Shown here in pieces: positions 18,298 to 52,856 of a DNA stretch of 64,000 nt; position 1 is the first letter of the stretch, and every line of letters starts with the position of its first letter. Position numbers and translations under genes: made by a program. This stretch comes from Bathymodiolus thermophilus thioautotrophic gill symbiont (GTDB taxonomy: Bacteria > Pseudomonadota > Gammaproteobacteria > PS1 > Pseudothioglobaceae): assembly GCF_003711265.1 (NCBI RefSeq), contig NZ_CP024634.1, positions 2,604,001-2,668,000 on the forward strand, read 5' to 3'. Under the pieces are notes generated by a model. It was not told where the DNA came from, did no database searches, and saw only the letters and a program-made list of their open reading frames with translations.

Positions 18298-18460
18298 GAG
18301 ACCTTTGCATAAAATATGAATAATCATCAAGAATTCACTTTTCATCCACTTGGTAATTTTTTTAAACCCAGCCTTAGCCCTGCCAGGAAAAGATTTAAGA
18401 AAATCACCCATTGGGCAAAAATTGAATTTTGCTAATCATCCATATTTATGCAAAGGTCTC
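18298..18460. mobile_element. GAGACC element, 163 bp, with target duplication ATTAT
   Basis: Ends GAGACCTTTGCATAAAATAT and CATATTTATGCAAAGGTCTC. The five bases before and after the element are both ATTAT, a clean target-site duplication. It is inverted relative to the copies at 24578 and 52696. It lies 46 bases before the sorting-tail cytochrome gene. Confidence 0.85.
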
Positions 18461-18506: not shown

Positions 18507-20660
18507 ATGAGTACACTTAATCGTTTTATTGTCAGGATTTTATTTGTTTTATTTACTTCACAGGTGTTTAGCACCAGTGTAAATGCAACTGAGGCAGCAA
18601 CTTTGGCGACCAATAAGTGTAGTTCTTGCCATGGGGGAGATTTTACTGGTTCTTCTGCACCCACACTTATTGGAAAGGCATCTGATTATTTACGAACAAG
18701 GCTGAATGCCTTTAAAGGTGGGCAGGGTAATACAACAATGCAAGGTATAGCCGCTAATCTTAGCGCTGCAGAGATTAATACATTGGCAAATTATTTTCCA
18801 ACTTTAGGGGCACTTGAAATTAGCACGGGTAATGTTGCTGTGAATGAGAATGCGCAAACCGTTACTACACTTGTGGCGAATAAAACTGGGGTAACTTTTA
18901 GCCTTAATGGAAGTGGGAATGACAATAGTTTGTTTATGATTGATGGCGCTGTGTTGAAGTTTAAAAATGTCGATGGTGCAAATTTTGAAGCCTCACCGAC
19001 TAAACATAGTTTCACCGTCAATATTCAAGTTGCTAAAAGCAGTGTAGAGGTTAAGAAAACCCTTACCGTTACCCTGAGAGACCTTAATGACGAAACCCCT
19101 ACTAACATCAACTTCATAGGCAGCTCTACCATCGCTGAAAACACCGCCATTGGCTCTGAATTAGGTACATTTTCTACCATTGATGCTGATGCTAACGACA
19201 CTTTTACCTACACCAGTAACAATGCCATATTGGCCATTGACGGCAACACACTCAAACTCAACGCCGCTCTAAACTATGAGAGTGCCACTAGTTTCACTGC
19301 CACCATTACCGTAACCGATGGCAACGCCCACAGTTTTAACAAAACCTTTGACTTTTTAGTTAGCAATATAGAAGAGGACGCCATTACTCTAACTAGAAAA
19401 GAAATTGCATTTAACGCAACTGCTGGCGCAATCATAGGCACCTTATCCAAAGTAGATGCAAGCACTTTAACTTACAGCGTTAACGACACCACCAATTTTG
19501 AAATTACTGACAATCAACTAAAAATCAAAATTGATGCTACTGCGATCACATTCCCAGCCACCATTACCATTACCGCCAGCGACGGCGCCCTAACCTCTAC
19601 AAAAGACTTTACCATTACCAAAACCATCGATAATGCTGACACTCCAGTAATCAATCAATTCATCGTAACCCAAGGTGGCAACAACGGTCGGCTGATTGGT
19701 AAAACTGGCGGAACAGTTACCGTCAATGCTTTAGTATCAGCAGAAACTTATGATTGGAGTAAATCTGATATTACTGGCACAAGCAATCAAACAATTTTTT
19801 CTTTTGACCCTGTCAACACAAATACTGGCATTCTAAAGATTACATTAAAAGCCCAGAACAATAACCTCTCATCAGAAAGAGTTTTAAAACTTAAATTGAT
19901 TGCAGGAAATGTCAACAGTGAGAACAATGACAAGGACAGCGATGGCATTCCCGACAACAAAGACACCCATATCGAAAGCAATAAAATCCAAGCAGGCGAG
20001 GGGAAAACTATGACCAGTTTAGGCGATACTAGAATATTGCTAGGCGCTATGGGCAAAGATTCTGGGCGATTAACCCTTGATCGAATAAAACAACATATAA
20101 CAGATAATCATTTGACTGAAAATGCCATAGATACATTAACTACTGGCAATATCTATGACTATGTAGTTGAGGGCTTAAGCGCTATTGGCGCCTCCACCCA
20201 AGTGATCATTGAACTCACCACCGCAATCCCTAAAGATGCAGTATTGCGTAAATATTCATTGGTGAATGGCTGGAGTAACTTTATGGTTGATGACAACAAT
20301 ACGATTAAATCCAGTGCAGACAATACTTGCGCCAATAACGCTACTTGGCAAACTGGGTTAATCACAGGTGCAACTTGTCTTAAATTAACCGTTAAAGATG
20401 GTGGTGCAAATGATACCGATGGCGACCAGACCAACAACACTGGTCAAGCCAACGGTGTGGTTGAAAGCACTATTTCAATAGCAACGCCTGCTGTCATTAG
20501 CGACGATGACAACAGTAGCAGCGATAGTAGCAGTGGTGGCGGTGGCGGTGGTTGTGTTTACAATCCTAATGCGCCTGCCAGATTTGATATGGGCTTTATT
20601 CTATTGATGACATTAAGCGCTTATTATTTAATGAGAAGAAGGCGTCGATTTGTCCGTTAA
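18507..20660 (+). CDS. Exported cytochrome c / cadherin-like protein with C-terminal sorting tail
   Basis: 717 residues. Signal peptide (FIVRILFVLFTSQVF) at 1-30, then a class I cytochrome c domain with heme site CSSCHGG and a candidate axial Met (TTMQGIAANLS). Next come cadherin-like beta repeats (DADANDTFTYTS, LNYESATSFTATITV), a calcium-type DKDSDGIPDNKD loop, and a domain resembling choice-of-anchor U (LTVKDGGANDTDG). The end is Ser/Gly-rich SSGGGGGGC, a hydrophobic helix, and RRRRR, the layout of the JDVT-CTERM/GlyGly-CTERM sorting signals. The start at 18507 is set by the Shine-Dalgarno CGGAG. The next gene is the likely processing protease. Base composition shifts from G/T-rich to A/C-rich near 19070. 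Confidence 0.82.
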   Translation: MSTLNRFIVRILFVLFTSQVFSTSVNATEAATLATNKCSSCHGGDFTGSSAPTLIGKASDYLRTRLNAFKGGQGNTTMQGIAANLSAAEINTLANYFPTLGALEISTGNVAVNENAQTVTTLVANKTGVTFSLNGSGNDNSLFMIDGAVLKFKNVDGANFEASPTKHSFTVNIQVAKSSVEVKKTLTVTLRDLNDETPTNINFIGSSTIAENTAIGSELGTFSTIDADANDTFTYTSNNAILAIDGNTLKLNAALNYESATSFTATITVTDGNAHSFNKTFDFLVSNIEEDAITLTRKEIAFNATAGAIIGTLSKVDASTLTYSVNDTTNFEITDNQLKIKIDATAITFPATITITASDGALTSTKDFTITKTIDNADTPVINQFIVTQGGNNGRLIGKTGGTVTVNALVSAETYDWSKSDITGTSNQTIFSFDPVNTNTGILKITLKAQNNNLSSERVLKLKLIAGNVNSENNDKDSDGIPDNKDTHIESNKIQAGEGKTMTSLGDTRILLGAMGKDSGRLTLDRIKQHITDNHLTENAIDTLTTGNIYDYVVEGLSAIGASTQVIIELTTAIPKDAVLRKYSLVNGWSNFMVDDNNTIKSSADNTCANNATWQTGLITGATCLKLTVKDGGANDTDGDQTNNTGQANGVVESTISIATPAVISDDDNSSSDSSSGGGGGGCVYNPNAPARFDMGFILLMTLSAYYLMRRRRRFVR

Positions 20661-21060
20661 GTTTTTAGTTGACAAACAATTTTGGGTCGCTATTGTAGCG
20701 GCTCTTATTGTTTGGATTCTGGTTTATTTTTTTGCCAGTGCTTTGATTGTAAAAAGTGAATTCAATCCAATTTATGCCATTTTCCTTTACCCTATCATTG
20801 AAGAATTGGTTTTTAGAGACTTAATACAAGATTATTTGCACACTAAATTTGCAGGCACTGTTGCTCAACTTTCGCTGGCCAATATCTTAACGACTATTTT
20901 ATTTGTGTTGTTACACTTAGTTTATCACCCAATTTTATGGGCGCTGGCAGTTTTTATTCCTTCATTAATCTTTGGTTATTTTAAAGACAGAGCCAACCAT
21001 GTATTACCTGCGATAATCTTGCATATATTTTATAACTTTGGGTTCTTTTTATTGCTTTGA
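20650..21060 (+). CDS. CPBP-family intramembrane glutamic protease, likely MrtJ-type sorting enzyme
   Basis: A 136-residue membrane protein with about four membrane segments. It carries IIEELVFRDLIQDYL (paired glutamates and Arg), HLVYHPILW and AIILHIFYNFGF, the three CPBP/CAAX-protease motifs. It starts at TTG 20650 inside the upstream gene's last codons, an 11-base overlap. The overlap and the tail on the upstream product suggest it is the dedicated protease for that tail, as described for JDVT-CTERM systems. The assignment to that subfamily rests on context; the protease fold is clear. Confidence 0.8.
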   Translation: MSVKFLVDKQFWVAIVAALIVWILVYFFASALIVKSEFNPIYAIFLYPIIEELVFRDLIQDYLHTKFAGTVAQLSLANILTTILFVLLHLVYHPILWALAVFIPSLIFGYFKDRANHVLPAIILHIFYNFGFFLLL

Positions 21061-21093
21061 AAATGAAGGCGCCTGTATTTAGATATAAATATT

Positions 21094-21175
21094 GAGACCT
21101 TTGCGTAAATATAAATAATCATCAAGAATCCACTTTTTTATTTTTATTAATTTTGATTATTTTATGCAAAAATCT
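21094..21175. mobile_element. Short deletion form of the GAGACC element (about 82 bp)
   Basis: Left end GAGACCTTTGCGTAAATATA followed by ATAATCATCAAGAATCCAC; the right end is decayed to ATTATTTTATGCAAAAATCT. A TATAAT follows at 21181-21186, so the element lies at the promoter of the next gene. Confidence 0.65.
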
Positions 21176-21220
21176 TAATGTATAATCAAAGTGAATTTTC
21201 TAACAATGGAGAAGAAAAGT

Positions 21221-21928
21221 ATGTTTAAAAACAATATATATTTATCATCTGGAATGTTTAATGCAGACACCAACCTTTATAACGCTTGTCTTGCAAAATA
21301 CCTTGAAAGTAAAAAACATCGCTGTTATTTACCGCAACGAGATGGGCTTTCGGTAGCAAAATTGAATTCTTATTTACAAAAACATTATCCAAAAATTGCC
21401 AATGAAGTCTCTTGTTATATTCCATATTATTTTGATCTAGGCTGTGGCATGAGGGATGCTATAGCAGTTGTTGCCAATATGGATGATCCAGTGGACATAG
21501 GGATGACCGTTGAAGTTTCCTACGCAAGCATTGTTAATTTACCTGTTGTTGGTGTGAGAACAGATATTAAATCTCCATTTGGAAATGTGAACGACTTAAT
21601 ATCTATTAACCCATTTCCAGTGATGCAATGTGATGTTTATCTAGCAACACAGCCATTTAATGGTGAATACAAAGACATTATGCATCACCTTGATAATATA
21701 TTTGATACAATTGAAGCAAGTGTGGAGCAGTTGATAAAAATAAAAAGCAACAATATGACACATTCTAAAAACCCAGTTATAATAAATATTCTAAAAGCTT
21801 CGGAAATACTCTTTGATGGCATAAAAGATATACATACAGAGGCAGCCATAGAAAAGGTTGTTAAAAGATATCTTGCACATAAAGAGTTTTTTGATTCTAT
21901 TGTGCCTAAAGCAATACCAGAATTGTAA
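21221..21928 (+). CDS. Nucleoside 2-deoxyribosyltransferase-like protein
   Basis: 235 residues from ATG 21221, which has the Shine-Dalgarno GGAGAAG. The N-terminal half follows the deoxyribosyltransferase pattern: IYLSSGMFNADTN, CYLPQRDGL, NMDDPVDIGMTVEVSYA (Asp and catalytic-type Glu) and VVGVRTD. The C-terminal extension is charged and helical and I do not recognise it. Enzymes with this fold transfer or hydrolyse nucleoside bonds; some relatives act in defence. It stands alone between a mobile element and a terminator. Confidence 0.75.
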   Translation: MFKNNIYLSSGMFNADTNLYNACLAKYLESKKHRCYLPQRDGLSVAKLNSYLQKHYPKIANEVSCYIPYYFDLGCGMRDAIAVVANMDDPVDIGMTVEVSYASIVNLPVVGVRTDIKSPFGNVNDLISINPFPVMQCDVYLATQPFNGEYKDIMHHLDNIFDTIEASVEQLIKIKSNNMTHSKNPVIINILKASEILFDGIKDIHTEAAIEKVVKRYLAHKEFFDSIVPKAIPEL

Positions 21929-22004
21929 AGTTGCTTCTTTATTACTTTTACGCTTAGAGATTAAAACCGAACTAAGCGGTTAAGCGTATTAAAGAAAGGA
22001 ATAA

Positions 22005-22039
22005 AAATAAAGGGGAGGTCTATGGCCTCCCCTTTATTT
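22005..22039. terminator. Bidirectional intrinsic terminator
   Basis: A perfect 14-bp stem, AAATAAAGGGGAGG with CCTCCCCTTTATTT, and a seven-base loop. The A- and T-rich flanks let it work in both directions, for the deoxyribosyltransferase-like gene (plus) and ybeY (minus). Confidence 0.85.
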
Positions 22040-22050
22040 TGTTATCAATG

Positions 22051-22066
22051 GAGACCTTTGCATAAA
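22051..22066. mobile_element. Solo left end of the GAGACC element
   Basis: GAGACCTTTGCATAAA, ending six bases before the ybeY stop codon. No partner end is seen. Confidence 0.55.
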
Positions 22067-22071
22067 GTTTT

Positions 22072-22512
22072 TTATTCATAAGGATTACAGATTTTCAATC
22101 CATGCAAAATCTTAATTTCTAAAGCCTCCATTGCTTCTGCCTCCTCTTCTTCAATGTGGTCATAACCCAATAAATGTAATGCCCCATGCACCGCTATATG
22201 CATTAAATGATGCTCGAATGTTTTGTGTTGCATTTGAGCCTCTGCTTTCACCACTGCACTGCAAATAACCACATCTCCCAAAATAGCTTCGTCAATTTCC
22301 TTAGGCAAATCACTTGGAAAGGACAACACATTGGTGGGTTTGTCTTTATTGCGGTAGGTTTTATTTAAATGTTGAATTTCGGCAATATCCACAATACGAA
22401 TCAACAACTCACTTGCGCCAACCCCTAAATCGGCAATCACTTGTTGCAAAATATCAGTCAGATTTTGCACATCAATAGATAAATCGTTAATACTATTTTG
22501 AATAACAACCAT
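22072..22512 (-). CDS. ybeY: Endoribonuclease / rRNA maturation factor YbeY
   Basis: A 146-residue metalloprotein needed for 16S rRNA 3' end maturation and ribosome quality control. The zinc motif [11 protein letters not shown] (H-x3-H-x5-H within [15 protein letters not shown]) is intact, as is TNVLSFPSD. Divergent from priA; the 5' regions touch. Confidence 0.95.
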
Positions 22513-22563
22513 ACTTTTATTTATTGTATAAAATCATTTATTTTATACAACAATAAATTTCAC

Positions 22564-24528
22564 TTGTCATCAATCCTTAAAGTTGCTGTTCCCGTTCCAT
22601 TAAATCAAACTTTTGACTATAAATGCGAAGTTGAAGTGGCTCAAGGTATGCGGGTTAAGGTGCCTTTTGGACGCAAAAAAGTTATTGGCATTGTACTTGC
22701 TAAAAAAGACAAAAGTGATTTTGCAAAACTAAAAACCATTGAAGAAGTATTGGACGACACGCCAATATTAGATCAACCAATGCTCGATTTTTTGCATTGG
22801 TCAGCAAATTATTACCATCATCCAATTGGCGAAGTGATTGCCGCTGCATTGCCAAAAAATCTACGCATTGGCAAACCAGCAATCATCAAAAAAGTGGTCG
22901 GACTGCCAATTGAAACCAGCGAACCCAATTTTGAACCCACAGACGAACAACAACATGCCATTGCGCAAATCTCAACTTCTTTAAACCAATATCACGGATT
23001 TTTACTCCACGGGGTAACCGGCAGTGGCAAAACTGAAGTCTATCTACGCATCGCTCAGAAGGTACTCAATCAAGGCAAACAAGTGCTAGTCCTAGTACCT
23101 GAGATTGGACTTACGCCACAGATGATTGCACGCTTTGAATCCAGACTGAACACGCACATCGTCTCAATTCACTCTCAACGCAACGAAACACAAAAATTAG
23201 ACGCCTATTTAATGGCAAAAGACGGCTCTGCTGGCGTGGTACTTGGCACACGCAGTGCGATTTTTGCACCCATGCCAAATTTAGGGTTAATTATTATTGA
23301 CGAAGAACACGACACTTCTTTTAAGCAACAATCCAGTTTTCGCTATTCTGCCAGAGATTTGTGCTTTGTGCGTGCCAAACAAGCCGATATTCCTGTGATA
23401 TTAGGCACAGCCACACCATCTTTGGAAATGCTCAAGCAAGTGATGGACAAAAAAATTACTCGCCTAACCCTAAAAAAACGCGCAAGTGGTGCACCCTTGC
23501 CAAAAGTAAATTTGATTGATATGCGCACCGAAACAGGTAGTGCACTTTCTGCATTATTAATCGAAAGAATGCGGCAACATCTGAAAAATAACAAACAAGT
23601 TATGTTGTTTATCAACCGCCGTGGCTACGCTCCCGTGTATTTTTGCACGCAATGCGATTGGAAATCAGAATGCGACCACTGTGATTCGTCAATGATTTAT
23701 CACCGCCACATTAATCGCCTTAGGTGCCACCATTGTGGCGATGAAAAAATACCCGAACAAACCTGCCCCGACTGTGGCGAACAATCGCTAGAAGTGTTTG
23801 GTTACGGCACCCAAAGACTGGAAGAAACACTAGGCTCACACTTCGCCAACACCTCAATCATTCGCATCGACCGCGACACCACTCGCCGCAAAAAAGCCTT
23901 TGAACAACATTTAGAACAAATCAACTCTGGTGAACCCTGCATTATTGTCGGCACGCAAATGCTGGCCAAAGGGCACGACTTCTCTAATCTAGCAATGGTA
24001 GGCGTTTTGGACATTGACGGTGGCTTATTATCCAGCAATTTCCGTGGCACAGAATACTTGGCGCAACTCCTAATTCAAGTATCAGGGCGTGCCGGCAGAA
24101 GTGGCGAACAAGGCGAAGTGGCTATTCAAACCCGCTACCCTGACCACCCCATTTTTAACTTCGTACTGTCCAACCGCTACACTCAATTTGCCAGCACCCT
24201 ACTCAAACAACGCACCCAAGCCAAAATGCCACCATTTTCCCATCAAGCCCTCATCTGCGCTAACGCCAAAGTCAAACAAAATGCCCAAGATTTTTTACAA
24301 GAAATGGCAACACTACTCAAAAGCATTCAAATAGACACCGTGGAAATTTGGGGGCCCGTTTCTGCCGTTATGGAAAAAAAAGCCGACTATTATTATTTTA
24401 ATCTCTACTTGCAATCCGACAACAGAAAATCCCTACACCAAATGCTTGCCACCCTCAACCAACACACCAAAACACTTACCCTTAAAAATAAAGTCCGTTG
24501 GTATTTAGATGTTGATCCCGTCGAATAA
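22564..24528 (+). CDS. priA: Primosomal protein N' (replication restart helicase PriA)
   Basis: Restarts stalled replication forks. I place the start at TTG 22564 so that the protein opens SSILKVAVPVPLNQTFDY like the family; the open frame extends to ATG 22498 without homology. Present are GVTGSGKTEVY (Walker A), IIDEEHD (Walker B), eight zinc cysteines (CTQCDWKSECDHC, CHHCG, CPDCG) and the C-terminal helicase motifs (QVSGRAGR). About 654 residues, slightly short for PriA. Confidence 0.93.
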   Translation: MSSILKVAVPVPLNQTFDYKCEVEVAQGMRVKVPFGRKKVIGIVLAKKDKSDFAKLKTIEEVLDDTPILDQPMLDFLHWSANYYHHPIGEVIAAALPKNLRIGKPAIIKKVVGLPIETSEPNFEPTDEQQHAIAQISTSLNQYHGFLLHGVTGSGKTEVYLRIAQKVLNQGKQVLVLVPEIGLTPQMIARFESRLNTHIVSIHSQRNETQKLDAYLMAKDGSAGVVLGTRSAIFAPMPNLGLIIIDEEHDTSFKQQSSFRYSARDLCFVRAKQADIPVILGTATPSLEMLKQVMDKKITRLTLKKRASGAPLPKVNLIDMRTETGSALSALLIERMRQHLKNNKQVMLFINRRGYAPVYFCTQCDWKSECDHCDSSMIYHRHINRLRCHHCGDEKIPEQTCPDCGEQSLEVFGYGTQRLEETLGSHFANTSIIRIDRDTTRRKKAFEQHLEQINSGEPCIIVGTQMLAKGHDFSNLAMVGVLDIDGGLLSSNFRGTEYLAQLLIQVSGRAGRSGEQGEVAIQTRYPDHPIFNFVLSNRYTQFASTLLKQRTQAKMPPFSHQALICANAKVKQNAQDFLQEMATLLKSIQIDTVEIWGPVSAVMEKKADYYYFNLYLQSDNRKSLHQMLATLNQHTKTLTLKNKVRWYLDVDPVE

Positions 24529-24577: not shown

Positions 24578-24736
24578 GAGACCTTTGCATAAATATGGAT
24601 GATGAGCAAAATTCAATTTTTGCCCACTTGGTGATTTTCTTAAACCTTGTCCTAGTAGGGCTAAGGCTGGGTTTAAAAAATTACCAAGGGTAAAAAGTGG
24701 ATTGTTGATGATTATTCATATTTATGCAAAAGTCTC
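24578..24736. mobile_element. GAGACC element, 159 bp
   Basis: Ends GAGACCTTTGCATAAATATG and CATATTTATGCAAAAGTCTC (one change). Inner inverted repeats CCACTTGGTGATTTTCTTAA and TTAAAAAATTACC, with the central CTAG-type hairpin, make it one long imperfect palindrome. It fills the space between priA and bioA and ends one base before the bioA stop region. Confidence 0.85.
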
Positions 24737-35604: not shown

Positions 35605-35765
35605 GAGACCTTTGCATAAATATGGATGATTAGCAAAATTCAATTTATATCCACTTGGTAATTTTCTTAAACCTTGTCTTAGCAGGGCTAAGGCTGGGTT
35701 TAAAAAATTACCAAGTGGGTGAAACGAGGATTCTTGATGATTATTCATATTTATGCAAAGGTCTC
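35605..35765. mobile_element. GAGACC element, 161 bp
   Basis: Perfect 19-base ends GAGACCTTTGCATAAATAT and the inverted counterpart. Second inverted pair CCACTTGGTAATTTTCTTAA / TTAAAAAATTACCAAGTGG, and central CTTAGC-AGG-GCTAAG hairpin. No target duplication is evident. Confidence 0.88.
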
Positions 35766-52695: not shown

Positions 52696-52856
52696 GAGAC
52701 CTTTGCATAAATATGGATGATTAGCAAAATTCAATTTTTGCCCACTTGGTAATTTTCTTAAACCTTGCCCTAGTAGGGCTAAGGCTGGGTTTAAAAAATT
52801 ACCAAGTGGGTGAAACGAGGATTCTTGATGATTATTCATATTTATGCAAAGGTCTC
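52696..52856. mobile_element. GAGACC element, 161 bp, with target duplication ATGGT
   Basis: Ends GAGACCTTTGCATAAATATG and CATATTTATGCAAAGGTCTC. Both flanks read ATGGT, a 5-bp target duplication. Nearly identical to the 35605-35765 copy. It lies between arsR and the MBL hydrolase gene. Confidence 0.9.

Follow-up and report, generated by a model that had tools for sequence, protein, structure and literature searches.

A MrtJ/JDVT-CTERM sorting system with at least 32 putative adhesin-like targets in the symbiont of Bathymodiolus thermophilus

In the thioautotrophic gill symbiont of Bathymodiolus thermophilus, a sorting system of the MrtJ/JDVT-CTERM kind has probably (we would put the probability at about 0.7) expanded from a single target to 32 or more, with adhesin-like substrates. 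The published description gives the protease of this system one target only (NF033192/NF033191; Haft 2024, as related in PMC11980579); what is new here is how many targets there are and of what nature. The domains of the tailed proteins point to adhesin-like display as their function, and the best reading is that MrtJ would serve generally as the protease that sorts a diversified set of adhesins to the surface. The window analysed, that is, the whole 64-kb stretch of DNA to which the coordinates below refer unless a contig is given, spans C1:2604001-2668000 of a genome that consists of a single contig of 2,832,685 bp.

Results

A target-protease pair of the MrtJ/JDVT-CTERM family

A preliminary description had read the pair in the window (Table 1) as a JDVT-CTERM protein with its CPBP protease, and both curated models bear this out: NF033191 matches the tail over the full length of the model (34.9 bits, cut-off 27; 41.1 bits for the last 50 residues alone), while NF033192 matches the mrtJ product (102.8 bits, cut-off 75), which also scores 56.6 bits against Pfam PF02517 (cut-off 22.4). 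By these models, the pair is assigned to MrtJ/JDVT-CTERM. Chance is excluded for the window tail, because at E<=1e-4 the JDVT model finds no match in 14 control genomes, nor in 81 of the 83 genomes of the family. As in MrtJ/JDVT-CTERM, the target gene adjoins mrtJ; the two genes overlap by 11 nt, and the AGAAGG in the target's Arg codons is likely the Shine-Dalgarno sequence of mrtJ.

The target is laid out as a signal peptide, a cytochrome c domain, cadherin-like repeats, a C-terminal domain and the tail. The cytochrome c domain (27.6 bits against Pfam Cytochrom_C, cut-off 21.3) carries a single heme motif, CSSCH, at 18618-18632, and the PF00028 Cadherin score reaches 110.7 bits in paralogues. 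In the tail, an invariant Cys codon (20553-20555) is followed by a hydrophobic helix and an Arg cluster; the protein ends in SSSGGGGGGCVYNPNAPARFDMGFILLMTLSAYYLMRRRRRFVR, the tail closing with GGGGGGCVYNPNAPARFDMGFILLMTLSAYYLMRRRRRFVR.

Table 1. Features of the target-mrtJ pair (window coordinates)
Feature	Position	Strand	Remarks
JDVT-CTERM target gene	18507..20660	+	ATG start, 717 aa; heme-headed member of the 32-member family
Signal-peptide-like N-terminus, MSTLNRFIVRILFVLFTSQVFSTSVNA	18507..18587	+	predicted; similar in 31/32 family members
Cytochrome c head domain	18582..18797	+	PF00034 above cut-off; unique in the family
Cadherin-like stalk repeat	19128..19325	+	PF00028, 22.1 bits, below cut-off of 28.8
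C-terminal domain common to all 32 tailed proteins	19872..20489	+	profile A1, E=1e-104
JDVT-CTERM sorting tail	20538..20648	+	NF033191; alignment of 32 tails
AGAAGG in the target's Arg codons	20637..20642	+	7 nt upstream of the mrtJ TTG; read from the sequence
mrtJ, glutamic-type intramembrane protease, 136 aa	20650..21060	+	TTG start; NF033192 and PF02517 above cut-off
MrtJ residues E51 E52 R56; H89; H125/N129	20800-20817; 20914-20916; 21022-21036	+	conserved in 31 MrtJ sequences

Membership in three other families was considered and rejected. The genome has no PF01694 match at E<=0.01, whereas 14 of 14 control genomes do; there is no rhomboid and hence no rhombosortase, which rules out rhombosortase/GlyGly-CTERM and also answers the concern that a better-fitting rhombosortase might lie elsewhere in the genome. 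GlyGly-CTERM is absent from the matches listed for window proteins. Myxosortase/MYXO-CTERM fails on both partners: the MYXO-CTERM model has no match at E<=1 among window proteins, and the window MrtJ stays under cut-off against MrtX (37.5 bits, cut-off 180), MrtC (39.4, cut-off 195) and MrtP (47.1, cut-off 250). The C-terminal domain is weakly choice-of-anchor-U-like; the match to NF041766, a model put forward in the preliminary description, is sub-threshold (19.8 bits for the window target and at most 24.9 in the paralogues tested; cut-off 32), and this family too was set aside.

A MITE-like element of ~160 bp with inverted GAGACCTTTGCATAAA ends recurs in the window (copies at 18298-18460, 24578-24736, 35605-35765 and 52696-52856, among others), one copy stopping 46 bp before the tailed gene. 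Its ends give 17 matches window-wide against 0.1 expected, nothing that is special to the target-mrtJ pair, and the flanking inverted repeats were therefore dropped as the mark of a mobile cassette.

Conserved motifs and one unusual residue in MrtJ

The CPBP motifs EExxxR, H and HxxxN are all present in the window MrtJ, and the six residues concerned (E51, E52, R56, H89, H125 and N129) are invariant across an alignment of 31 MrtJ sequences, for which the EE..R part also served as a means of selection. Codon 57 (20818-20820), beside the conserved Arg56, encodes Asp in the window and Gly in the other 30 sequences, a change that could alter activity. Were Gly57Asp to have crippled MrtJ, the system would be inactive and the tailed proteins would either remain in the inner membrane or be released by some other cleavage. 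Asp57 is indeed unique in the alignment, the two nearest relatives having Gly, and a related genome has lost the MrtJ/JDVT system; however, mrtJ keeps its frame and each of the six conserved polar residues examined, 31 of the 32 targets are intact, and the genome in which mrtJ truly broke (G059, below) retains no tails. We find an inactive system quite unlikely. An AlphaFold model of MrtJ made without an alignment was poor (pTM 0.34) and was set aside.

Thirty-two tails and a single protease

The preliminary description took the pair for a dedicated system of one protease and one target, and had fixed in advance a search for other tailed proteins as its check. That search overturns the proposal: JDVT-CTERM matches number 32 in the genome, each of them exceeding the curated NF033191 cut-off, and they stand against one CPBP protease and one MrtJ. 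The published trait of a single target per protease, which lies outside the models, thus does not describe this genome, and this lowers the claim to a dedicated single-target system; membership in the family still rests on the curated models. Eleven of the tailed genes stand in an array at 733-775 kb on the minus strand and nine in another at 1.726-1.753 Mb on the plus strand, the other 12 being scattered.

All of the tailed proteins are long open frames that close with the tail (369-2224 aa in those measured), and 31 of the 32 are read from a similar signal peptide, of the MNTFNRFIVTTLLVLFASQVFA type; the remaining member has a signal-peptide-like N-terminus in a shifted frame. This member (L021, G000:C1:171047-174000) is the only gene of the 32 with a frameshift, which falls in the head. 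The Cys and nearby Y, P, R, F and D are invariant in 32/32 tails, and a pN/pS of 0.23 for the tail codons, from the alignment of the 32, indicates that the tails are under purifying selection. Searched with a profile of the ~200 aa that precede the tail, this genome yields 32 loci, each followed by a tail, and that of the B. brooksi symbiont (G057) yields 9 places; the remaining 81 genomes of the family yield none. Because every domain locus here carries a tail, the tails of this genome spread as one target gene was duplicated; they were inherited with the common domain, not recruited independently, and duplication alone could account for the 32.

It is conceivable, then, that MrtJ cuts only its overlapping neighbour and that the other 31 tails are duplicated, uncleaved membrane anchors. 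The overlap of the target and mrtJ genes fits such a dedicated pair, as do the usual presence of one JDVT target (median 1 in 52 genomes) and the single target of the published description, as rendered in PMC11980579. Yet the 32 tails are near-identical around the Cys and under purifying selection, the neighbour's tail has no distinguishing feature, and in G057 the tail is found on unrelated bodies as well. Exclusive cleavage of the neighbour seems to us unlikely.

Elsewhere in the genome (G000:C1:430839-446015), five genes in a row, with open frames of 557-690 aa, have no JDVT match and have a short segment in common with a tailed protein of G057; this is perhaps another surface-protein family.

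Variable heads on a common C-terminal domain

Seven of ten sampled tailed proteins pass the Pfam Cadherin cut-off. By BLAST linkage, the heads of the 32 form six groups of 20, 6, 2, 2, 1 and 1 members; one of the two-member groups joins the frameshifted gene to a gene that opens directly with stalk-like sequence, and the cytochrome head is a singleton, the window gene alone having a CXXCH (1/32). A system meant to display a cytochrome at the cell surface, there to transfer electrons, would account for a cytochrome c domain with CXXCH in the very gene that adjoins mrtJ, but CXXCH is found in 0 of the 31 other tailed proteins, and the mrtJ-adjacent target of G057, truncated by the contig start, has the common family C-terminus. 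Since the heme head is unique among the 32, electron transfer was rejected as the role of the whole system, and we regard heme display as very improbable. The preliminary description had offered electron transfer or adhesion as the role of a surface heme protein; the former falls with the single CXXCH, and adhesion fits better.

Among neighbouring array genes, the heads often resemble each other no better than shuffled DNA does, with identities mostly of 0.40-0.51 (shuffled control, 0.44 +/- 0.03); in the clearest array pairs, the last 750 bp are 0.91-0.99 alike and the signal-peptide DNA 0.92-0.98. Along the pair J1740360/J1743815, identity per 100-bp step runs 84, 57, 50, 41, 50 and 91, after which it stays at 88-100 as far as the end. 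This mosaic pattern of unlike heads between like ends is best explained by recombination that would swap heads between the conserved 5' and 3' ends.

Distribution in other genomes

MrtJ scores above cut-off in 53 of the 369 genomes of the class, this one included. In the other 52, JDVT tails at E<=1e-3 number 0 in 10 genomes, 1 in 27, 2-5 in 14 and 7 in one (median 1, maximum 7); where none is found, the tails may be too divergent for the model. The 32 tails lie far outside this sample, in which several-target genomes do exist, and a single target looks like the common state of MrtJ/JDVT-CTERM, not a rule.

In the family, MrtJ occurs in 4 of 83 genomes, and tails only in the two where an intact target-MrtJ pair stands (this genome and G057), the 79 genomes without MrtJ having no tails; this co-occurrence is suggestive, reflecting few independent events. 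In G057, 13 tails exceed the cut-off and one narrowly misses it; since they often sit where a contig stops, the true number is probably higher. The target and mrtJ genes of G057 overlap too. Two of its proteins end in the same tail after a C-terminal body without similarity to the common domain, and their N-terminal parts resemble the heads of J747477/J739289; this makes the tail a portable signal and shows that heads are combined with more than one kind of body. In the B. heckerae symbiont (G059), the pair has decayed (L057, G059:C18, 9441-10159): mrtJ is split in two frames, the target remnant keeps its start and the last tail residues without the Cys motif, and there are no tails elsewhere in the genome.

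The fourth genome, of another genus (G001), has an intact mrtJ beside ybeY and priA (L056, G001:C70) and no tail was detected in it, the contig ending just upstream of mrtJ. The order and orientation mrtJ - ybeY - priA are common to this contig and to the window (20650-24528), where mrtJ and ybeY are separated by one additional gene; being kept in two genera, the order suggests an old locus. The target-mrtJ pair stands elsewhere in G057 (near pyrG) and in G059 (near adk).

Discussion

The machinery that surface sorting would call upon is encoded in the genome. A T2SS locus, gspC-K, lies at C1:1,023,517-1,032,961; GspD, GspG and GspK are above NCBIfam cut-offs, the best-scoring models for GspC and GspE are the corresponding T2SS ones, albeit below cut-off, and F, H, I and J were assigned from order and resemblance only. 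There is one Lgt. We propose that the conserved signal peptide exports each target, which its C-terminal helix and Arg cluster would then hold in the inner membrane. In Myxococcus, cleavage and surface sorting of Cys-tailed proteins have been demonstrated for the MrtJ relative MrtX; for MrtX/TraA, the cleavage is reported to depend on the Cys, the product to be anchored at the surface and transport to use the T2SS, and lipidation is proposed (PMC11980579). By analogy, the tail Cys would probably be lipidated first, MrtJ would cut next to it, and the processed targets would be transferred to the surface, possibly through the T2SS whose genes are present. The substrates are built like adhesins, a conserved anchor domain bearing a head that differs between members, in most cases on a cadherin-like stalk; recombination between the conserved gene ends would have exchanged the heads. 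The window cytochrome, alone among them in its heme head, has the protease gene as its neighbour.

If MrtJ/JDVT-CTERM acts here as a general sorting system, it is a candidate mechanism for how the B. thermophilus symbiont surfaces its unusually many attachment proteins. For this symbiont, 129 attachment-related proteins are reported as detected in the gill, where they make up 23.9% of its proteome, and attachment-related genes are said to be rare in its relatives (PMC6976577). Domain content and distribution suggest that the 32 tailed proteins are among the 129: like those, and in the same symbiont species, they are exported, of cadherin type and exceptionally numerous compared with relatives; the portion of PMC6976577 drawn on here names no sorting tail or protease. 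One small membrane protease serving at least 32 same-tailed proteins with exchangeable outer parts may thus provide a route of adhesin display. More tentatively, a two-gene sorting cassette might have become the export and anchoring route of a recombining, head-swapping surface repertoire, the tailed proteins accounting for a good share of the attachment proteins (about a quarter of the symbiont's proteome in the gill) and MrtJ the single gate for the variable surface shown to the host.

Compared with known systems, the window pair is like MrtJ/JDVT-CTERM in that both curated models pass, target and protease are adjacent, the CPBP motifs are present and the bacterium is a gammaproteobacterium, but its targets number 32 and are for the most part adhesin-like proteins of cadherin type whose heads have probably been exchanged. 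Myxosortase MrtX/MYXO-CTERM of Myxococcus xanthus also pairs a CPBP protease with dozens of Cys tails (35 in M. xanthus; PMC11980579), but its tails have another motif and its protease is longer, the window MrtJ scoring best to its own model; T2SS-dependent surface display was shown in M. xanthus, whereas the MrtJ system is known here from sequence. With GlyGly-CTERM/rhombosortase of Vibrio it has in common a Gly-rich segment, a helix, an Arg cluster and the link of T2SS to surface proteins, but the Vibrio enzyme is a serine rhomboid protease, of a class that the symbiont genome lacks. At five loci of other Gammaproteobacteria (L076, L091, L092, L093 and L098), a gene for a putative outer-membrane protein of OmpA type, with a beta-barrel-like front and an OmpA-like end, stands after the JDVT target and directly before mrtJ, forming a three-gene set.
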